This document shows, piece after piece, positions 1 through 10,845 of a stretch of 10,845 bases of DNA. Position 1 is the first letter of the stretch, and the number at the start of each line of letters is the position of its first letter. The notes under the pieces are model-generated. The model saw only the letters and a program-made list of their open reading frames with translations, had not been told where the DNA came from and did no database searches. The stretch is from Nanobdellati archaeon (GTDB taxonomy: Archaea; EX4484-52; GLR71): positions 1 through 10,845 of the forward strand of contig JAHYJR010000011.1 of assembly GCA_019429005.1 (NCBI GenBank), written 5' to 3'. The position numbers were made by a program, and so were the translations under genes.

Positions 1-192
1 TGGTTAGAATATGAATATTTTTTAACAGCATCAACAGATAAAAATCCAGTAGAATTTTGTTGGAAAAGAACAAGACAAGAATTATTACAATTTTATTCAT
101 TTTCTAAAAAAACAGAGTTATTGAGTAATTTAGGTAAATTATGGGAAAATGGGTTTTTCACACATGAACTCTCTAATTATTTGTCGCTTTGA
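1..192 (+). mobile_element. IS630-type transposase, C-terminal fragment (5' part outside window)
   Basis: The first reading frame is open from base 1 to a TGA at 190-192 and gives 63 residues. The segment DKNPVEFCWKRTRQELL at residues 13-29 matches the last catalytic block of IS630/Tc1-mariner-like DDE transposases (typically LNPVEECW), and the E of NPVE is the third acidic catalytic residue. The following RTRQELLQF and the closing FFTHELSNYL match the usual C-terminal tail. The enzyme would cut and join the element's ends and insert at TA dinucleotides. The gene stops immediately before the helicase remnant on the opposite strand. The sequence at 193-197 (CTATA) supplies candidate TA targets, so the element's right end may coincide with the transposase stop codon (inference). 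The rest of the element and its left end lie outside the window. Confidence is good for the family and moderate for the exact boundary. Confidence 0.8.
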
Positions 193-423
193 CTATAAAT
201 CTAGAAATTTAAGTAGTTCCGCTTTCCATTGAAACATTAAGTTTATGGTTGGGACGATTATACAAGTTCTATAATCGGGATTATCTTTCATAAATTGCTT
301 TATACAATATATTGCAAATACGGTTTTTCCTTTTCCTGTGCCTACTTTCAGTATTCCATTATAATTATTATTTTTGAAGATTTTATACGCATCATTTTGC
401 CATTCTCTTAATATAATTCCCAT
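193..423 (-). pseudogene. DEAD/DEAH (superfamily 2) helicase, N-terminal remnant cut off by an insertion sequence
   Basis: This 76-residue frame starts with ATG at 423 and ends in TAG at 193-195. It carries the start of an SF2 helicase: a Q-motif-like LREWQNDAY (residues 5-13), Walker A GTGKGKT (28-34) and motif Ia, CIIVPTINLMFQWKAEL (54-70). Such helicases run to several hundred residues with a DEAH/DEXD motif and a second RecA-like domain, and all of that is missing. The frame ends exactly where the IS630-type transposase gene ends on the other strand, so the simplest reading is a helicase gene interrupted by the element, with the TAG created by the junction or the element's end. The style resembles XPB/SSL2-like or type III Res-like helicases, but the fragment is too short to place. 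I see no Shine-Dalgarno before the ATG. It is presumably non-functional. Confidence 0.75.
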
Positions 424-620: not shown

Positions 621-1697
621 ATGGATTCTGATAAAAGTTTAAAGTATAATATATTTAACTATGCAACAAAAGAATTATCACAAGATGCATTTATTGCTTG
701 GTTATTGAACTATTATAATGATAAAGATCATGAGTTATACCCAATTGCTGAAAAATTGTTAAATAAGATTGTTACTGAATCACATATAGATAGTAAATTA
801 CCAAAAACAAAAATAGATATTAGATTACAAGAAGACAAACGAGATGTGACTGTTTATTTCTTAGATGATAAGGGAGAACCAATAAAAGAGTTAGTTATAT
901 TTTTTGAGGATAAAGTTAATAGTTCTGAGGGTGATGGTCAAATAACTGGATATTTTAATAAATTGAGGGATAAAGATTTTAATAAAGTAATCCCCGTTTA
1001 TTTTAAGACCACTTATATGACAAAGAAAGAAGAAGCTAGTTTAAACACACTTAAAACAAAACTTAATTCATTAGTTATATTTTCTCAAAAAGAGATTTCT
1101 GATTTCTTTGTTAATCATTTAAACCAAAAAGACAATATAGATATAATTATGCCAATTAGGACTTATAATGTTTTACTGAATGATTGGATTACATATTTTA
1201 AATCTATGGCTGTTTTTGGTATAGATGTAAAGGGGATTACAAATATATCTGAAAAACTGAAGGAGAAAGATAGTTCTATTTATAAAAAATCACTAAAAAT
1301 TAAGATTTTAGATGAAATTGGTAATTCTATAAAGACAAGTCAAAATCTTTCAAAATTAGATAATTATAATGTGGGGCCATTCAATAATAGCCATGCTATT
1401 TACTATTGGATAGAATTACCGGATAAAAAGACATACATTCAAATATACATTATGGGAGACACTCTCATACGTTTAAGTTTTAACCAAAATCCAGCAGAAA
1501 ACTTTGACGAAATTAGGAATAAAATTGAAGTGTTTTGTAATGCGCCAAATAACTGGAAGTATGCAAGATATAAAAAGAAAAGAGCATCTTTTAAGTTTGA
1601 TTTGAATATTGAAACATTAGAATGCACGTATAGTGATTTAAAAGAACAAATCAAAAAAGCGATTCTTGAGGTCAGTAATAATACTGATTTGATGTAG
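621..1697 (+). CDS. PD-(D/E)XK nuclease family protein
   Basis: This 358-residue protein resembles the stand-alone PD-(D/E)XK nucleases of the PDDEXK_4 type (PF14281). The N-terminal signature NIFNYATKELSQDAFIAWLL (residues 10-29) is typical of that group. The likely active site follows: D75 in the strand RDVTVYF, then E96 and K98 in VIFFEDK (the E-x-K), and Q107 in GDGQITGYF, which fits the QxxxY helix of these nucleases. The predicted activity is metal-dependent DNA cleavage in the cytoplasm; the substrate is unknown. The remainder (about 130-358) has no motif I recognise. A TATA-like box at 572-584 and an SD at 607-612 support the ATG at 621 and an independent transcription unit. It converges on the HAD gene and lies near a restriction-modification operon and a broken helicase, so a defence role is plausible but unproven. 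The length is normal for the family, with no frameshift or missing catalytic residue. Confidence 0.75.
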   Translation: MDSDKSLKYNIFNYATKELSQDAFIAWLLNYYNDKDHELYPIAEKLLNKIVTESHIDSKLPKTKIDIRLQEDKRDVTVYFLDDKGEPIKELVIFFEDKVNSSEGDGQITGYFNKLRDKDFNKVIPVYFKTTYMTKKEEASLNTLKTKLNSLVIFSQKEISDFFVNHLNQKDNIDIIMPIRTYNVLLNDWITYFKSMAVFGIDVKGITNISEKLKEKDSSIYKKSLKIKILDEIGNSIKTSQNLSKLDNYNVGPFNNSHAIYYWIELPDKKTYIQIYIMGDTLIRLSFNQNPAENFDEIRNKIEVFCNAPNNWKYARYKKKRASFKFDLNIETLECTYSDLKEQIKKAILEVSNNTDLM

Positions 1698-2724: not shown

Positions 2725-2749
2725 ACCCCTCAAAATTTGAGGGGTTTTT
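2725..2749. terminator. Bidirectional hairpin terminator at the end of the restriction-modification operon
   Basis: ACCCCTCAAA and TTTGAGGGGT pair around a single A, and TTTTT follows directly on the + strand. On the - strand the stem is preceded by A-runs and followed by TCTATTATTTT, so it can serve the res transcript, whose stop codon lies about 20 nt upstream at 2767. It is the clearest intrinsic-terminator structure in the window. Confidence 0.65.
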
Positions 2750-2766: not shown

Positions 2767-5700
2767 TTATACAGATTTAACCTTATTTCGCAATTCATCA
2801 AAACTACTTACTACATCAAATATAACATTTCCATCCGAAATTGCATTAAAATGTTTTCGTGCGCAATCAATTTTTACTTTTTCAACACCACGCCAATCTT
2901 TATCCTGCACACTTCCTTTAGTCTCAATTACAAAATATGCATATTGGATTTTTTTCTTATCAAAAACAATAATCCAATCTGGACTAAATTTCCCAACAGG
3001 TGTGTTAATTACATATTCCCCTTTAGGAAGTTTAGAAAAGACTAAAACATCTACTGATGCATCTATTTTTTCGGCTATATGTTTTTCAATATCAGAATCA
3101 TAGATAAGATAGTCATAAATGTATCTTTCTACATCTATAGATTTACCAACACTAAGTATATTTTTTTTAAAGATATCAATCGAAATAGTTTCAGAGGTTC
3201 TATGATATTCTATATTATGATAAATTATTTCTGCTTTTTCATCATTTATTATTTTACAGATTTTTATTAAAAAATCTTCAGGATTTTGTTTAAATAAATC
3301 AAATTTATCCGGATTAATCTTTGATACTATCTCAATAATAGTCCATCTAGTCATGCTTGTTTCAGAAACAATTTTACCTATTAAATCATATTTTACAAAA
3401 TCAGATATACTTTCAGTTAAATTATCATATTTGATTGTCTCTTTTGTAAACGCAGTTTTATTTTTTAAATCCTCTGCATTCAATCCAATATTTTTCATTT
3501 TACCCTCGGTTGTTTCTGATTCGATTTTAATAATTGATAATTTTTCATTTATCTCTTTAATTGCATTAGTTATAAGAGTCTCGGTTTTAAAATCTACAGT
3601 ATATGTACTTTTTATATTTATATAATCCCACAATTCTCTAAATTCTTCTTTATTAAAATTAGTTTCATTAATTTTATTTGTTATTTTATTTTCATTATCC
3701 TCATTATGTACTTTGACGTTATTTTCATATAATTCACGTATAATATCTATTAAATCAGTTGTTTTATCTTTAAGGTCATCTCTAATGTTTAGTGTGCCTT
3801 CATCTTTATCCTTATGATATTTTTCAGTCAATGACCCGTTTTCATCAACATACTTATTCACTGTAAAATCATATATAATAGCTTTAGCAACAGGTTCATT
3901 TATTCTCTCACCATTAATTGATTTCTTCATTAAAAATTCAACAGTTAGTTTTGATGGTCTTTCTCTTAGGTTTTGGCTGAATTCATTCTGAAGCCCATGA
4001 GCAAAATCTTCATAGGATTCATTAGCAATTATTGTTAAAATATTTGCTTGTGTAAAATCTAAGCCTTCATATTCCTCATCAACTCTATCTCCTTGTTGGT
4101 TCACACAAAGCCTTAAACCTCTTCCAACTTCTTGCCTTGTTCTTACCTCTTTAGGATCTGTATTTCTCAATACACAAATCTGAAATACATTTGGATTATC
4201 CCATCCTTCTCTTAGTGCTGAGTGTGAAAAGATAAATCTTGTTTTTTCTTTTAAATCAAGAAGTAACTCTTTTTGTTTCATAATCAAATCATAAGCACTG
4301 ACATCATCACAGGTCTTATTTTCACCTCTGCCTTTTTCATCAGGATTTATTAAGTGTCCTTTTTTATCTATTGAGAAATAACCTTTATGCGTTTCGTTTG
4401 AAGTTATTGATTCTAAATAAGCATTATATTTAGCCTCCTCTTTTTTGTATTCTTCAATTAATGTAGTATATTCTTCTTCAAAGACTCTTGCATATTTTCC
4501 GGGAATGTTATTGTCTTGCTCATCATATTCTCTGTAATTTTTTACTTCATCTATAAAAAACAGAGATATTGTCTTTATTCCGTTTTTATAAAGATTTCGT
4601 TCTTTATTCAAATGAGATCTTATTGTTTCTCTTATTTGTATTCTTCTTTTGTGATCTTCATTTATGTTTCCTACAATGTCACTTACGGAGACTTTGACTC
4701 CATTAGTAAATTCGATATAGTTTGAGGTTATATCAGATACCTTATATCCTTTATATTGTGGCAATTCACTAGATATTGAAAATAAATCATCGCCCCTATT
4801 TATTCTTCTTGTTTTTTTTACAATACTATTTATCTGTTTTACTTCAAGCTCAATCCTTGCTGATGGATAATTATTCTTGCTTATGTCAATTCCTTCTATG
4901 TACAAATAGCTGTGTGTTGCTGTAGTTCCTTTGATGTTTATTCCTTTAACATTAATTTGTTTTACTAGTTTTTTATTGAAAGCGTCAACTGCATCCAGAC
5001 GATAAACCATATTGTATGTTTCTCTATGTGTTGCTGAATATCTTAAAGTGAATAAAGAATTGAAATGTTTTAAACCTTCTTTAGTTGCAGGTCCTTCAAC
5101 GGATTGTGGTTCATCAATTATAATTATTGGATTTGTACCTGCAATATAATCTATTTGACGAGCACCGTGTTCTGTTTTTTTATAAATATTATTACTCGTT
5201 TTATTAGTTATATCATTTTTAAAATCTTTTTTATTAAATGCATGACTATTAATTATCATAACATTAATACTACTGTTTGTTGCAAATGATTCAATTTGAG
5301 TTTGTTTGGACGAATCAAATATGAAATGCCTAATCTTCTTGCCGTATAATGTGGCAAAATGTTCTTCCATAATTTGAAATGATTTTAAAACACCTTCTCT
5401 TATAGCAATACTTGGAACAACTATAATAAATTTAGTCCAATTATATTTTTTATTTAATTCAAAAATTGTGTTGATATATACATATGTTTTTCCAGTTCCG
5501 GTTTCCATCTCTACTGTAAGGTTCAGACCATCTCCTTCAAGTTTTGTTGAATGATGCAGATTATTATTTTTTTGTATTTTTATGATGTTTTTAAGTATTG
5601 TTTCTTCAGGGATTGTTATTTTTCCATTTTTCCATGCATATATGTTTGAATCCTTTGCAAAAGATGTCAGACCACCTTGTTTTTTACCATATAGGTATTT

Positions 5701-5790
5701 GTATGATTCTTTACCTTGACCCTCAAATACATCACAGACAGCATTCATTGCGTCAATCTGGAACTGTTGTTTTTTGAATTTTAGTTTCAT
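2767..5790 (-). CDS. res: Type III restriction endonuclease, Res subunit (helicase plus nuclease)
   Basis: This 1007-residue protein has the full architecture of a type III Res subunit, the ATP-dependent motor and DNA-cutting partner of Mod. Helicase motifs run in order: Walker A METGTGKT (95-102), motif Ia FIIVVPSIAIREG (121-133), DEAD-box variant IIIIDEPQ (222-229), motif III LRYSATH (249-255), motif V FSHSALREGWDNPN (521-534) and motif VI RTRQEVGRGLRL (550-561). The C-terminal PD-(D/E)XK nuclease is intact, with D938 in SPDW and E956 and K958 in FVIETKG. The complex should require ATP and two unmodified sites to cleave. The ATG at 5790 overlaps the dinD stop by four bases (ATGA), and AGAGG at 5799-5803 is its SD. 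The length is normal for the family and no motif is missing, so it looks active. A hairpin terminator follows about 20 nt after the stop. Confidence 0.93.
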   Translation of the reverse strand: MKLKFKKQQFQIDAMNAVCDVFEGQGKESYKYLYGKKQGGLTSFAKDSNIYAWKNGKITIPEETILKNIIKIQKNNNLHHSTKLEGDGLNLTVEMETGTGKTYVYINTIFELNKKYNWTKFIIVVPSIAIREGVLKSFQIMEEHFATLYGKKIRHFIFDSSKQTQIESFATNSSINVMIINSHAFNKKDFKNDITNKTSNNIYKKTEHGARQIDYIAGTNPIIIIDEPQSVEGPATKEGLKHFNSLFTLRYSATHRETYNMVYRLDAVDAFNKKLVKQINVKGINIKGTTATHSYLYIEGIDISKNNYPSARIELEVKQINSIVKKTRRINRGDDLFSISSELPQYKGYKVSDITSNYIEFTNGVKVSVSDIVGNINEDHKRRIQIRETIRSHLNKERNLYKNGIKTISLFFIDEVKNYREYDEQDNNIPGKYARVFEEEYTTLIEEYKKEEAKYNAYLESITSNETHKGYFSIDKKGHLINPDEKGRGENKTCDDVSAYDLIMKQKELLLDLKEKTRFIFSHSALREGWDNPNVFQICVLRNTDPKEVRTRQEVGRGLRLCVNQQGDRVDEEYEGLDFTQANILTIIANESYEDFAHGLQNEFSQNLRERPSKLTVEFLMKKSINGERINEPVAKAIIYDFTVNKYVDENGSLTEKYHKDKDEGTLNIRDDLKDKTTDLIDIIRELYENNVKVHNEDNENKITNKINETNFNKEEFRELWDYINIKSTYTVDFKTETLITNAIKEINEKLSIIKIESETTEGKMKNIGLNAEDLKNKTAFTKETIKYDNLTESISDFVKYDLIGKIVSETSMTRWTIIEIVSKINPDKFDLFKQNPEDFLIKICKIINDEKAEIIYHNIEYHRTSETISIDIFKKNILSVGKSIDVERYIYDYLIYDSDIEKHIAEKIDASVDVLVFSKLPKGEYVINTPVGKFSPDWIIVFDKKKIQYAYFVIETKGSVQDKDWRGVEKVKIDCARKHFNAISDGNVIFDVVSSFDELRNKVKSV

Positions 5791-6629
5791 TTTAATAACC
5801 TCTTTGAAACTTTAGCTAGATTATTTTCATCATTTTTTATTCTTCTTTCGAGCTTTTTAATGTCCTCTTCAGGAGGTAATCGTTCTGGATAAATATCATC
5901 TTCTAAAAGTACATTTCTAACTCTTTGATTATTTTTAATGTGTTCTGTTGTAATTTTTGGTTCTCCTTGTAAATCGTCTTTTTTTATATTAAAATTGGTT
6001 ATTTCAGTTGCAAAATTTTTAGCTGCCATTGTAACTGTTGGAAGAACATCTGCAAGGGGTTTATATTTAGGTATTTCTAATATTGTTTTCATTTGATTTG
6101 TATTATACCCACCAAATAATGCTTGGTCTCCTTTGCTTCTAATTCTTGCAAAACCTTTATTATCTACGCCCCTTTCATAAATCAATTTTGATAGTTCTGT
6201 TTCGGATTTTACTAATTTTTCTCTTACATCAAATCTTTCTTTTAATGCAATTCGTTTTTCAATTAATTCTTGTTTTCTTGTCTGGATTGCAAAATAGCTT
6301 TGAGCAAATGCAATTTCATCTTTTCTTGAATCTCCGTTTTGGGCAATTAGATAACATGCATATCGTGTAAGCATATAATTAATTATTTCTCTTTCTACAC
6401 CAGAACCTAGTTCTACCATTTTCCCGACGTCGGGAAAATGGTTCTGTACCTCTTGCCCTGCATTTTTACAAGAAATCTTTGCTTTTTCTATAATTTTTAC
6501 AAAATTATCCCACTTAGAATAACCTAAAAGACTTTGCAAATCTCTTGCAAACCAAAATTCGATTCCGTCTTCTATGTGCACATAATCTTCAAAATTTTTG
6601 GTAAGTCTTATAATAATCTCTTTTTCCAT
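5787..6629 (-). CDS. dinD: DinD-family (DNA-damage-inducible protein D) protein with BRO-N-like domain
   Basis: A 280-residue protein that I recognise as the DinD family. The N-terminal half is BRO-N-like (WFARDLQSLLGYSKWDNF at 26-43, RYACYLIAQNGDSRKDEIAF at 89-108, YFAIQTRKQE at 112-121). It is followed by the family block ARIRSKGDQALFGG (161-174), LADVLPTVTMAAKNFATEIT (192-211) and the closing PPEEDIKKLERR (252-263). E. coli DinD belongs to the SOS regulon and has been reported to inhibit RecA; the biochemical role of homologues in R-M operons is not known to me. Here the gene sits between mod and res: its ATG is 1 nt after the mod stop, with the SD GGTGAT inside the mod 3' end, and its stop overlaps the res start. 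It is therefore almost certainly expressed with both. I see no LexA-like operator, as it has no promoter of its own. Codons 63-72 lie in a perfect 28-bp palindrome. Confidence 0.88.
   Translation of the reverse strand: MEKEIIIRLTKNFEDYVHIEDGIEFWFARDLQSLLGYSKWDNFVKIIEKAKISCKNAGQEVQNHFPDVGKMVELGSGVEREIINYMLTRYACYLIAQNGDSRKDEIAFAQSYFAIQTRKQELIEKRIALKERFDVREKLVKSETELSKLIYERGVDNKGFARIRSKGDQALFGGYNTNQMKTILEIPKYKPLADVLPTVTMAAKNFATEITNFNIKKDDLQGEPKITTEHIKNNQRVRNVLLEDDIYPERLPPEEDIKKLERRIKNDENNLAKVSKRLLK
6415..6442. repeat. Perfect 28-bp palindrome inside dinD
   Basis: ACCATTTTCCCGAC is followed directly by its exact reverse complement GTCGGGAAAATGGT, with GACGTC at the centre. Symmetry continues imperfectly outward: TTCTG follows on the right and CAGAACC lies at 6401-6407 on the left, offset by 8 extra bases. 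It encodes the conserved family residues around HFPDVGKM of the DinD protein. Confidence 0.9.
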
Positions 6630-6630
6630 A

Positions 6631-8529
6631 TCAAATCACCTTCACAATCGTATTTGGTATTTTATTTTTCAAGTATTCATCACAGTTGACTTTTGTTGAA
6701 TCATCCTTGAATGAAGAGTCTTTAAAGACTATCCTTGAGGGATTAAGTTCTGCTATTTGCTTTATGGTCTCTAAATCAATATCGTTGTCAAAACATGCAA
6801 TAAGAAAGGTATCATTTACCTTGTAGATGGTTTTGTTATTTAATTTTTGTTCTTCTATTTTTGCAGAGATTGGTATTGCAAGTTCAAGCAAGACCTGATA
6901 TAAAAGGTCTTTGTCGGTTCGGTCTTCCTTGATGTTATTTTTGAAATTAGTTAGGGTTCGTTGGTCAATTTCGTTAGGGTTATAATAGACATCTTTCATG
7001 TTTGACGAATCTGTCTTAAACACTCTGAAGCCGAAATCTACATTTTTTAGATCTTTGTCTTTGTTGTCATCTTGAATCTTTTTGGCTGCTCTTCTTATGC
7101 GTTCTTTGCCGATTTCACAGATGTTTTTGTATCCCGCCTTGAATGCTTCTGAATCCTCTGCCGTTGGCTCTGGAAGCTGTACCATGATGAACTTGCGGTT
7201 GCCGCCGTCTTCTGCATTTAGCTGCATGACTGCGTGGGCGGTTGTGGCGGAGCCTGAGAAGAAGTCGAGGATTATATCGCCTTCATTGGAACTTATGGCA
7301 CATAAAAACTGTATTAAATCATATGGTTTTGAGTAATCAAATATTTTTGTCCCAAAAAGTTTTTCCATTTGTTTAGTAGCTTGCGTACTTGAATATTTTG
7401 AGATTACTGCTCTAAAAGGTACTTGTCTTGAAATAGGTTCTCCGTTATGATCCACTTTGAAATACTGTTTAGTATAAACCCAGAGTTTGCCATCGGTATT
7501 TTTTCGAATTTCAATAAAACGGTTTTTCAATCCCCATTCATATTTCGATTGGGACCATCTCCAGCAACCCCTTTTCCCATTTTCTGACGGGGTTACTTTC
7601 TCACCATTCGGGAGTTTAATCTCGTAATCAAGAGACTTAGAATATTGTATGCTGAAGCTATTTAATTTTATTAATTTGTATCTTCCTCTCTCCTTTACAA
7701 ACTCATCCTCATAAGAATATGAATTATCTTCTTGAGTAGTTTCACCTTGAATTCCGCATTCATCTATATCTTTAGCATAACATAAAATATATTCATGTTT
7801 TATTCTGAAAAACTTACTATCTGATGAACCTCCTCCTTCTTTATTCTCCCAAACAAGCTGTGATATAAAATTCCCTCCCCCAAAAATTTCATCACATATC
7901 TTCTTTAAATTATCCACTTCGTTATCATCAATCGAAATAAAAATAACCCCGTCATCCCTCAACAAATCCTTTGCAATAACCAGCCGCTCAAACATCATGG
8001 AAAGCCAGTCGCTATGGAATCTGCCGTTTGTTGTTGTGTTTTTGAATAGCTTATTTCCGCCTTCGTCTATTGCACCAGATTCTTTGTCCTCTGCATTTTT
8101 TGATTTTGTAAAGTTATCTTTATATACAAAATCTTTACCTGTATTATATGGTGGATCTATGTAAATCATTTTTATTTTGTTCAGGTAAGATTCTTGTAAA
8201 AGTTTTAATACCTCAAAATTATCTCCTTCAATATAAAGATTCTCTGTGTTTTCAAAATCAACGGAATCACCTGGGACTGGGCGCAATGTTTTATTTATTG
8301 GCATTACTATCTTCTGTCTAGACTTTTGCTTTCCCGCCCAAGTAAGGTCATATACTTCTGAATTATTGTCTGCATAATCACCGACCAATTCTTTAAGTTT
8401 ATCTGCATTAATTGTTTTGATTAGATTTCCATCTTTTTCAACTTCAGTTATTATTTCAGGAAATAGTTTTATTAGTTTAGCAATATTTTCCTGTGTTAAA
8501 TCCTTTGTAGTCATAGTTAATTTTTTCAT
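6631..8529 (-). CDS. mod: Type III DNA methyltransferase, Mod subunit (adenine-N6 type, beta class)
   Basis: Counting from the ATG at 8529 this is 632 residues. It methylates the recognition site and gives the type III complex its specificity. The catalytic motif IV, IDPPYNTGKDF, comes first (DPPY at 125-128), and the AdoMet-binding motif I, ILDFFSGSATTAHA, comes later (DFFSGS at 422-427). That order marks the beta class (N6/N4). The N-terminal block NLYIEGDNFEVLKLLQESY (97-115) is typical of type III Mod. The interval between the catalytic domains (about 225-415) is the target-recognition domain. The frame is open to a GTG at 8550, but the ATG at 8529 lies 1 nt after the stop of the ATPase gene, with AGGGA about 11 nt upstream, and is preferred; an ATG at 8514 is also possible. 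No simple-sequence repeat suggests phase variation. DNA for motif I and for the region near 7980-8050 is visibly richer in G+C than the recognition domain. Confidence 0.92.
   Translation of the reverse strand: MKKLTMTTKDLTQENIAKLIKLFPEIITEVEKDGNLIKTINADKLKELVGDYADNNSEVYDLTWAGKQKSRQKIVMPINKTLRPVPGDSVDFENTENLYIEGDNFEVLKLLQESYLNKIKMIYIDPPYNTGKDFVYKDNFTKSKNAEDKESGAIDEGGNKLFKNTTTNGRFHSDWLSMMFERLVIAKDLLRDDGVIFISIDDNEVDNLKKICDEIFGGGNFISQLVWENKEGGGSSDSKFFRIKHEYILCYAKDIDECGIQGETTQEDNSYSYEDEFVKERGRYKLIKLNSFSIQYSKSLDYEIKLPNGEKVTPSENGKRGCWRWSQSKYEWGLKNRFIEIRKNTDGKLWVYTKQYFKVDHNGEPISRQVPFRAVISKYSSTQATKQMEKLFGTKIFDYSKPYDLIQFLCAISSNEGDIILDFFSGSATTAHAVMQLNAEDGGNRKFIMVQLPEPTAEDSEAFKAGYKNICEIGKERIRRAAKKIQDDNKDKDLKNVDFGFRVFKTDSSNMKDVYYNPNEIDQRTLTNFKNNIKEDRTDKDLLYQVLLELAIPISAKIEEQKLNNKTIYKVNDTFLIACFDNDIDLETIKQIAELNPSRIVFKDSSFKDDSTKVNCDEYLKNKIPNTIVKVI
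6635..6640 (-). promoter_or_regulatory. Ribosome binding site of dinD within the end of mod
   Basis: GGTGAT on the - strand lies 5 nt before the dinD ATG and within the last codons of mod. This supports re-initiation or coupled translation. Confidence 0.6.
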
Positions 8530-8530
8530 A

Positions 8531-10774
8531 TTATTCACTATCCCTTGCACTAATTATTCTTTCTGTAACTGTTATAAATTGTTCAACAAGAGTTACAATC
8601 TCATTTGTTTCAATAAGAGTATAACTATCTCTTGATTCATGAACGTAATGTAATTCTGGATCTAATCCAAATGTTCCAAGTAATATTTTTGAGCATTTAG
8701 GCTGTTTTAATTCCTTAAATACATTTCCAATCTCAGTTTCATAATCCGAATATTGTTCCTTAAAAACTGATTCAATTCTATAATCTCCAATTAGTTGCTT
8801 CATACCAATACTATTTATTTTATCATACGGTATTTTTAATTTTAGGTTTTTTGCGATTTTAAATAAGGTATGTTCAAGAGAAAGTCTTGTATATAATGCA
8901 GTCGCACGTATATCTTTTTGTCTTAAATGTTCTTTTGCTTTTGAAATACAACTTCCATTAATCGGTTTGTAATTAACACCTTCACTTAGATTCCAATTAG
9001 ATTTTAACGCAACATAAGACTCATAATTAAATGAGGTTATCAAAATTTCAAAAAATAATCTATCTGACGAAAAAAGGATTAATTGAATTCCTTCATTAGA
9101 TAAACTATGAAAATATTTAATCAGATTATATCTGTGTTCATGATCTATTGCATATATTGGATCATCAACAAATAATGTCTTTATTTTTGTTGAATTAATT
9201 TTAAAATTAGCCATGAGTAAAGCAAAACCAAGACATTTTAAATGACCTGTACTCAAAGTGGAAACAGCATCTTCATAGACTCCATTAATTTTTACTTTAA
9301 AATCAATTAGGGGATTTGTTTCTTCTAATTTAGAAACATTTATTTTTAAGTCTTCAATATGTTTATCATGTTCAGATTGATTAATATCATTATATATTTT
9401 AAAAACTATATCTTTAGATAATGAATCGAGTTCACTCTGAATTTTGTTTTTATATGTTTGAGAAAATACGTCTTGATATTTAGTAATATCCCTTTTTATG
9501 ATTGTAATTGTTTTGAATTCTTTCTCTATTTCGTTATATTTTTTTTCAATATTAGTAAGTTCCTTTATTTTTTCAACATATTGTTTTGTTAAGATTATAT
9601 TTGAAGATGAATTTTTTTCAATTAAAGACATTAAATCTGGTTTTAATTTCAATAATTTATTTATTTGATCCAGATTATTTTTAGAAATGAAATCAGACAA
9701 ATTCAAATCAGTTAATAATTTTGTTATATTTTCTTTTTGAAGGTTCAACTCTTGACTCTCCTTTTTCATCAAAGAATTTAATTCAATCAATGTTTCATTT
9801 AATTGTGTGAAATCCTTATTTTGAGATTTTATTTTAGATAGTTGATTCCTTATTTTATTAGTATCAATATTGGTATTATGACAAATAGGACATTCTTTAA
9901 TATCAAAATATTTATTAAAAAAATCGTCTGCTGAATTAATTATTTTTAGTTTTGAGTCATCAATATTAATATTAATCTCTTTTTTCTTATTTTCTAAATT
10001 GTTTATTTTTAACTGATATTTTCCGAGAGTTTCATGTATGTTATAAAATAATGTCAGCGTTTTTTCTAAATACTTATATTTATTAGGATCTTTAATTTGA
10101 TTGGAAAAATAATCCATTTTACTTTCCCAGTCAATGCCAAGCATGTCATCCATACTATTTTTTAAATTTGAAATCTCCACACTTAATTCTATCTTTTTTC
10201 TTTTTATATGTTCAAATATGTCATTTAACGGGTCGTATTTTTTTGTAACCTCATTCTTTAAAGCAATTAATTTTTTATCAAATTCTCGTAATTCCTCAAA
10301 ATTTAAAAGTTCAGAGAATGCTTTCCATAAGTTTGCGGGAGCATCTAATACAAATTTATTAATTCGATTTATATCTATAAATGATGCATCTGAGAAATCA
10401 TGAGTTATACCATTTGGAGATGGAGAGATTATAGGATTACATAAAGATGTTTTTCCATCTAAACATCTTGATAATTTATTATTATCCTCAAACTCAATTT
10501 CAGTTAATAAATCTAAACTATAATCGGTATTTTTGTTTTTTAAGAATTCATTACAATTACATCTCCTATTTTTTGATTCTTCACAATCTCCAGTTATGCA
10601 CCATTCTAACACATCATATAATGATGACTTTCCGGTACCATTTTCTCCTAAAATAAATACATTTTTTAACTTAAAATTCAATGTTTGAGGGGATCTAATA
10701 TTGTCAAGGGGGAGGTTCTTAAAACCCCTAAGCCCATTTACTTTAATATTTTTAATCTTGACCATTTTTATCAT
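8531..10774 (-). CDS. SMC/RecF-like AAA ATPase with CxxC motif and helical C-terminal extension
   Basis: A 747-residue ABC-type head ATPase. Walker A is GENGTGKS (43-50). A long charged helical region follows (about 160-460), interrupted by CPIC (295-298), which resembles a Rad50-type zinc hook. The ABC signature is LSTGHLKCLGFALL (507-520), and Walker B with the catalytic acid is IKTLFVDDP (531-539, D537/D538). The position of the usual switch histidine (TH before DR) reads SS (S570 in LILFSSDR). After the ATPase comes a 150-residue helical extension (about 600-747) containing RLSLEH (630-635), an R-x4-H arrangement like that of HEPN ribonucleases. Such proteins act on DNA ends or couple nucleotide sensing to a toxic effector; I cannot tell which applies here. 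The gene ends 1 nt before mod, and its start overlaps an upstream ORF by 23 nt. The ATG at 10765 is an alternative start. It is not PrrC/RloC in its N-terminal signature. I am confident of the ATPase and unsure of the role. Confidence 0.82.
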   Translation of the reverse strand: MIKMVKIKNIKVNGLRGFKNLPLDNIRSPQTLNFKLKNVFILGENGTGKSSLYDVLEWCITGDCEESKNRRCNCNEFLKNKNTDYSLDLLTEIEFEDNNKLSRCLDGKTSLCNPIISPSPNGITHDFSDASFIDINRINKFVLDAPANLWKAFSELLNFEELREFDKKLIALKNEVTKKYDPLNDIFEHIKRKKIELSVEISNLKNSMDDMLGIDWESKMDYFSNQIKDPNKYKYLEKTLTLFYNIHETLGKYQLKINNLENKKKEININIDDSKLKIINSADDFFNKYFDIKECPICHNTNIDTNKIRNQLSKIKSQNKDFTQLNETLIELNSLMKKESQELNLQKENITKLLTDLNLSDFISKNNLDQINKLLKLKPDLMSLIEKNSSSNIILTKQYVEKIKELTNIEKKYNEIEKEFKTITIIKRDITKYQDVFSQTYKNKIQSELDSLSKDIVFKIYNDINQSEHDKHIEDLKINVSKLEETNPLIDFKVKINGVYEDAVSTLSTGHLKCLGFALLMANFKINSTKIKTLFVDDPIYAIDHEHRYNLIKYFHSLSNEGIQLILFSSDRLFFEILITSFNYESYVALKSNWNLSEGVNYKPINGSCISKAKEHLRQKDIRATALYTRLSLEHTLFKIAKNLKLKIPYDKINSIGMKQLIGDYRIESVFKEQYSDYETEIGNVFKELKQPKCSKILLGTFGLDPELHYVHESRDSYTLIETNEIVTLVEQFITVTERIISARDSE

Positions 10775-10844
10775 ATTCCCTGATTATTTCTTCGATTTTA
10801 GTTGATAAATAATTGCGGTTTTCATATAGCCCATACTTTTCAAG
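10752..10844 (-). CDS. Unknown protein, C-terminal 30 residues (5' part outside window)
   Basis: In a second frame of the - strand, codons are open from the window edge to TAA at 10752-10754. They encode a charged tail beginning LEKYGLYENR and ending IREYDKNGQD. The last 23 bases overlap the start of the ATPase gene, the arrangement expected for a translationally coupled upstream neighbour. The short length means the frame could be open by chance. Against that, no promoter or terminator lies between it and the ATPase start, and every other junction in this operon is equally tight. I do not recognise the family. Confidence 0.45.
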   Translation of the reverse strand, partial: LEKYGLYENRNYLSTKIEEIIREYDKNGQD

Positions 10845-10845
10845 C

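Follow-up and report, generated by a model that had tools for sequence, protein, structure and literature searches.

In type III restriction-modification (R-M) systems, Mod methylates the host DNA and Res cleaves unmodified DNA, the hallmark activity being a cleavage that depends on ATP and takes place between unmethylated sites in inverse orientation. The best-known back-up RNases tied to restriction belong to bacterial type I systems. PrrC, an ABC ATPase with a HEPN domain that is embedded in the EcoprrI operon, acts as such a back-up effector; PrrC proteins have 341-416 residues, lack a zinc-hook insert and are linked to type I (IC) systems. RloC carries a Rad50-like head with a hook and a C-terminal R-x3-E-x36-52-H, and is a wobble-excising, zinc-responsive tRNase (PMC2610378) that is activated by DNA breaks (PMC12707154). 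A linkage of RloC to type I or type III R-M genes was noted in passing in 8 of 73 instances, and one archaeal case is mentioned as well (PMC2610378). ABC-HEPN proteins are frequently found within R-M operons, one of their clades resides in prophages, the general HEPN motif is Rx4-6H, and certain HEPN domains are non-catalytic (PMC3710099).

Here we describe a locus on a 10,845-base archaeal contig, analysed over its entire length (hereafter the window), which belongs to a genome of 1.08 Mb that is 94% complete. The locus is a real extended type III R-M operon. Like EcoP15I and StyLTI, it encodes full-length Mod and Res proteins in which every recognisable motif is kept, mod preceding res; unlike standard type III systems, it also has an ABC-HEPN-like gene in front of mod, and dinD separates the two restriction genes.

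Organisation and genomic setting of the operon

Direct reading of the ORFs and their junctions places all four genes on the minus strand, in the 5' to 3' order ATPase, mod, dinD, res (Table 1). Only 1 nt separates the ATPase gene from mod, another single nucleotide lies between mod and dinD, and dinD and res overlap by the 4 nt ATGA, tight junctions that imply co-translation. The ATPase ORF is complete, because an in-frame TAA sits four codons 5' of its ATG. For mod, the start is the ATG at 8529 and the stop lies at 6631, the alternative listed GTG at 8550 falling within the ATPase gene. Upstream of the ATPase, the frame ending at 10752 (...YDKNGQD and a stop) comprises 30 codons, a length that is readily expected by chance at the local base composition. 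The search for hairpins after res found one where 0.4 were expected, and the relevance of such hairpins in archaea is uncertain.

Table 1. Features of the operon and their positions in the window.
Feature	Position	Strand	Basis
ABC-ATPase/HEPN-like protein, RloC-like architecture, 747 aa	8531..10774	-	ORF
Predicted HEPN-like C-terminal domain, residues 597-747, R630-x3-E634 ... H708/H711	8534..8986	-	AF2 model, PDB matches, invariant residues
mod, type III adenine methyltransferase, 632 aa	6631..8529	-	PADLOC, Pfam, motifs
dinD (Bro-N), 280 aa	5787..6629	-	NCBIfam, PADLOC, tree
res, type III helicase-endonuclease, 1007 aa	2767..5790	-	PADLOC, Pfam
Terminator-like hairpin 3' of res	2725..2745	-	9-bp stem, T-rich tail CTATTATTTT
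30-codon open tail 5' of the ATPase, truncated at the contig end	10752..10845	-	sequence

Mod matches the PADLOC profile MTase_III at full length (E 4e-221, covering residues 8-637 of the ORF as listed) and Pfam N6_N4_Mtase (E 1e-39), with visible DPPY and FSGSATT motifs, and is thus a beta-class N6-adenine methyltransferase over its whole length. Res, for its part, matches PADLOC REase_III at full length (residues 1-1005, E 2e-273) as well as Pfam ResIII and RE_endonuc (the latter at E 6e-30), and combines over its whole length an SF2 helicase and a C-terminal endonuclease, with a Walker A motif, a DEP box and a D...ExK motif all visible. The closest Mod and Res proteins in our census of type III loci (see below) share only 42-47% identity with those of the window and are spread over several phyla. 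A sequence-only reading of this DNA had described the four genes as locked together by the junctions given above, and the motifs of Mod and Res as all intact; both observations were confirmed, the former by the ORFs themselves and the latter by full-length profile matches together with recognisable motifs. The further gene which that reading thought might come first corresponds to the 30-codon tail at the end of the contig.

The best match of the flanking HAD hydrolase, at 60% identity, comes from a different genome within the same order, and the GC content of the window (28.8%) compares with 28-31% in the other contigs of the genome. Both observations place the contig in the archaeal bin and make a binning artefact improbable. 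Kinship lists and the ORFs of other contigs, which by our reading include KaiC-like ATPases and isopentenyl phosphate kinase, indicate an archaeon with a small genome.

Besides the operon, the window contains a relic of the N-terminal half of a ResIII-type helicase (190-414, minus strand), which ends at a TAG after about 75 codons, and a 358-aa ORF (621-1697, plus strand; GC 26%) with a weak match to the nuclease family PDDEXK_4 (E 1.6e-4, just below the cut-off). An imperfect 21-nt direct repeat, ATCACGGANTNATTTTGTGTA, at 535-555 and 2682-2702 flanks 2.1 kb that include this nuclease-like ORF and the HAD gene, and was absent from the other parts of the genome that were sampled. Elsewhere in the same genome, an open frame of 12,145 aa is reported on contig C8 around 16223-16660, part of it being visible in the 20-kb end, and the start of contig C10 (L239:98-1660 and 1757-2725) carries what we judged by eye to be an HsdM-like gene and a C5-methyltransferase-like gene.

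The ATPase and its C-terminal domain

As in RloC, the ATPase has a Rad50-like ABC head that is split by a coiled coil with a CxxC hook. Its Walker A motif spans G43-S51 (10622-10648), the zinc hook is C295-P-I-C298 (9881-9892), and Walker B lies around D537-D538 (9158-9178). Compared by description, it also falls within the 658-897 aa size class of RloC and shares a C-terminal R-x3-E...H. Sequence searches returned similarity of the Rad50/SMC type only, with the family profile A3 matching Rad50 at E 6e-13; the matches of profile A5 to PDB sequences (augmin, FliG) were all of low grade and were dismissed as chance. Unlike RloC, the window ATPase did not match Pfam AAA_13, which we take to be the family of RloC and PrrC, at E 0.01. 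Weak matches to AAA_13 were seen in four relatives (L105, L107, L114 and L019), of which L114 exceeded the cut-off. The AF2 model of the full-length protein was poor (pLDDT 55) and was read for secondary structure only.

Relatives of the ATPase, at 18-23% identity, were detected in plasmids, viral contigs, E. coli and two genomes, and all contain a CPxC hook and an F(I/V)xxNRI motif beside the ABC motifs, with C295 and C298 invariant. They are mostly solitary and located in prophages or plasmids, although one adjoins a three-component ABC system in an E. coli island and another belongs to a type I operon, where it is flanked by hsdS and hsdR. The prophage-located relatives, with their HEPN-type C-terminal domain, resemble by description the prophage ABC-HEPN clade of APECO1_4465 (PMC3710099); they are solitary, and at the N-terminus the relatives have some 80 aa more than the window ATPase, which lacks this region. 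A member of the ABC-HEPN family was also seen as cargo of an E. coli prophage near prfC (L260 and L261), and such matches occur in 15 E. coli genomes, two of which were inspected.

No homologue of the ATPase above about 30% identity was found. Close homologues were absent from the phylum of the window itself (33 other genomes), from 84,980 genome contig sets searched with single-sequence peptide patterns, from phages, and from viral contigs searched with the single sequence. The 279 genomes of the phylum to which the Woesearchaeota locus L023 belongs yielded one weak partial match, and profile A2 detected 1 of 249 in Pseudomonadota, 1 of 198 in Bacteroidota and, in the phylum that includes Methanoregula, 0 of 196, at strict E cut-offs with which rare relatives may be missed.

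The second ABC half is followed by a domain of about 150 residues. Among seven aligned sequences, the only invariant charged residues of this domain are R630, E634 and one His (H708 or H711), and the three are kept in a wider set of 13 relatives as well. Their invariance across relatives that are less than 20% identical suggests an active site. When modelled alone with AF2, the domain gave a model of moderate confidence (pLDDT 66, pTM 0.62), for which the nine best PDB matches in VIA-align were all of HEPN or HepT type (Z 7.7-6.5, the next unrelated fold scoring 4.5), with the caveat that, in helical folds, a Z value below 13 may stem from a common arrangement. Foldseek gave no significant E-value for the same model, and the Pfam HEPN match (E 0.064), found in a single member, was not counted as evidence. 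The domain is thus predicted to adopt the HEPN helical fold.

The order of R, E and H is the same as in the PrrC/RloC triad (PMC2610378), while the spacing between E and H is 73-76 residues in the window protein versus 36-52 in RloC. The Rx4-6H motif is absent from the window protein (...FGLDPELHYVHESRD), in which no Arg stands 5-7 residues before H708 or H711, and is present in some relatives only (WRYLNKGTH). Since the triad order agrees, the spacing is longer and the motif is lacking, we refer to the ATPase as RloC-like and not as RloC; the long spacing and the missing motif also imply that the putative RNase may be inactive or unusual. Because no homologue exceeds about 30% identity, the protein is assigned to its family from motifs and a model of moderate confidence. 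The protein is also similar to PrrC in combining an ABC ATPase and a predicted HEPN domain within an R-M operon, but with 747 aa, a hook and a type III locus it does not qualify as PrrC.

DinD and the accessory positions of type III operons

The window DinD matches its reference profiles at full length, with 354.5 bits for NCBIfam NF008573 (cut-off 242) and an E-value of 4e-114 for the PADLOC candidate PDC-S13. An alignment scan of 84,980 genomes, from which the best 80 DinD loci were kept, revealed dinD within a mod/res operon in four of these 80, in the order mod-dinD-res in genomes of Omnitrophota, Nitrospinaceae and Halopseudomonas and as dinD-mod-res in Ozemobacter. The unbiased Res census added a fifth case, again mod-dinD-res, in a further genome of Pseudomonadota (L221). 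About ten other loci among the best 80 are of type I, one is a dnd operon and the majority represent other contexts, the context being unclassified in 61 of 77 loci. Outside the window, DinD usually occurs alone, in type I loci or in other contexts, and only a few lineages have it inserted between mod and res.

In the DinD tree, the window copy groups, with support 0.99, among archaeal DinDs from loci in which type III genes are not seen, whereas four other type III copies fall inside a separate clade of 13 members (support 1.0) that also contains type I- and IIG-linked copies. The Omnitrophota copy is placed apart from both. These placements show that dinD has been recruited into type III operons more than once, with at least two and probably three independent events.

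Several ATPase genes near dinD proved to be unrelated to that of the window. A Geobacteraceae MAG has dinD as part of a dnd phosphorothioation operon (L027:6226-11997), in the order dndC-dndD-small gene-dinD-cysteine desulfurase, and the adjoining ATPase is the DndD of this operon. The gene labelled 'AAA family ATPase' near dinD on a Flammeovirgaceae plasmid is not related either. Locus L070 is a probable type IIG operon with a helicase, DUF1016, dinD and a small ABC ATPase that has only the P-loop in common with the window ATPase and was rejected as a family member.

For the census, Res loci of the PADLOC subfamily of the window were collected with their flanks from four phyla and the gene order was read by script, giving 52 loci with mod and res, 39 of them with a readable upstream side; as ORF calling was mechanical, the counts are approximate. 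At least one gene lies between mod and res in about 31 of the 52 loci (~60%), including the DUF1016/YhcG nuclease, Fic, Schlafen AlbA_2, AAA_21 with DUF4276, HEPN, DinD, a PDC-M59 protein with a Fic/Doc partner, and others. Before mod, an SNF2/HKD helicase, mostly accompanied by DUF4391, was present in 21 of the 39 assessable loci. The variety of genes at both places indicates that they are exchangeable cargo positions of type III operons. We found no description of two such positions in the literature that we searched. The window fills both of them, in a combination found only here in this sampling.

In the type III operons L198 and L182, mod and res are separated by genes for an AAA_21-type ATPase and a small partner, which is DUF4276 in L198. 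Comparable accessory genes occur in other R-M operons, such as the type I operon of a Bacteroidota genome (L151:3815-14839), which has three of them, an AAA_15 ATPase, an HNH-like protein and an ABC-HEPN relative, between hsdM and hsdR.

No second ATPase-mod-dinD-res locus was found in a limited sample of some 60 type III and 80 DinD loci. The sequence-only reading had raised the possibility of a multi-gene system, to be recognised by a recurrent gene order in distant hosts and to be abandoned if the relatives of the ATPase were mostly away from type III genes or if the order was confined to this genome. For the ATPase the outcome is largely the latter, its relatives being mostly solitary, whereas mod-dinD-res does recur in distant phyla. 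A conserved four-gene system is thus not supported, because both the full order and the linkage of the ATPase are unique in this sampling.

Candidate roles of the accessory genes

We consider it probable, by a modest degree, that the two filled accessory positions of this type III operon hold an RloC-like ABC-HEPN protein acting as a latent back-up RNase before mod and an accessory DinD between mod and res. Mod and Res would restrict unmodified DNA as a first line of defence. The ABC-HEPN protein would be kept as a latent RNase, its ATPase and hook sensing DNA ends or failed restriction, and once triggered it would cut RNA, perhaps tRNA, so that translation stops in an abortive response and a second line of defence is provided. 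The linkage of dinD suggests a damage-related regulator, and DinD may be a linked damage-responsive or regulatory accessory rather than a subunit required for restriction. We infer the RNase activity and its coupling to Mod and Res; the proposal of a back-up RNase is based on the precedents of PrrC for the coupling to R-M and of RloC for the activation by DNA breaks (PMC12707154). The ATPase had previously been regarded, by analogy with PrrC, as a possible linked effector. This analogy is now better grounded, because the ATPase has an RloC-like architecture with a predicted HEPN C-terminal domain, although in this sampling its linkage to type III genes is unique to this locus.

The main rival, a serious possibility to which we give somewhat less than an even chance, is that the ABC-HEPN gene and dinD are passive cargo, that is, self-sufficient defence genes that share the type III promoter but are uncoupled from Mod and Res. 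The solitary relatives of the ATPase in prophages and plasmids are consistent with it, as are the prevalence of DinD outside restriction loci, the closeness of the window DinD to archaeal copies outside type III loci and the high variability of the genes at the cargo positions. The base composition is uneven as well (GC 24.7% in the ATPase gene versus 34.4% in mod), a gap that fits a recent separate acquisition and thus possibly mere co-transcription. On the other hand, the 1-nt and 4-nt junctions imply co-translation, an ABC-HEPN gene is also present in a type I operon, and the linkage to R-M has been reported repeatedly (PMC3710099, PMC2610378).

Two further readings concern the ATPase itself. 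We think it unlikely that it is a Rad50/SbcC-like subunit for DNA-end processing or sensing that aids Res, with the C-terminal domain as a non-catalytic binding module: the Rad50-like head and hook, the missing Rx4-6H and the existence of non-catalytic HEPN domains (PMC3710099) would agree with such a function, yet the operon has no SbcD/Mre11-like nuclease partner, and the R, E and H that are invariant among such distant relatives point to catalysis. Far less probable still is the reading of the protein as LmuB, the sensor of Lamassu-type systems, or as a different SMC-like defence ATPase that is not ABC-HEPN. The top PADLOC profiles of the protein are indeed LmuB (E 6e-20) and mad3 (E 2e-12), but these matches span the SMC/ABC head and coiled-coil regions common to such proteins, and in the window, whose contig ends upstream of the ATPase, neither the lmuA gene expected beside LmuB nor an LmuC-like partner was found. 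The independently predicted HEPN fold and the conservation of R, E and H also speak against LmuB, the definition of which, to our knowledge, includes no HEPN-like C-terminal domain.

For the back-up RNase that we favour, a more specific and more speculative version, which we regard as rather doubtful, is an archaeal type III counterpart of PrrC-EcoprrI. Mod and Res would then silence the ABC-HEPN RNase, inhibited restriction or accumulated DNA ends would release it, and DinD would be a damage-dependent modulator.

Overall, the two exchangeable cargo positions of type III operons, before mod and between mod and res, offer a means of searching for back-up effectors. The window locus is a compact, complete and apparently co-transcribed candidate for a type III-linked back-up RNase, and it is found in an archaeon.
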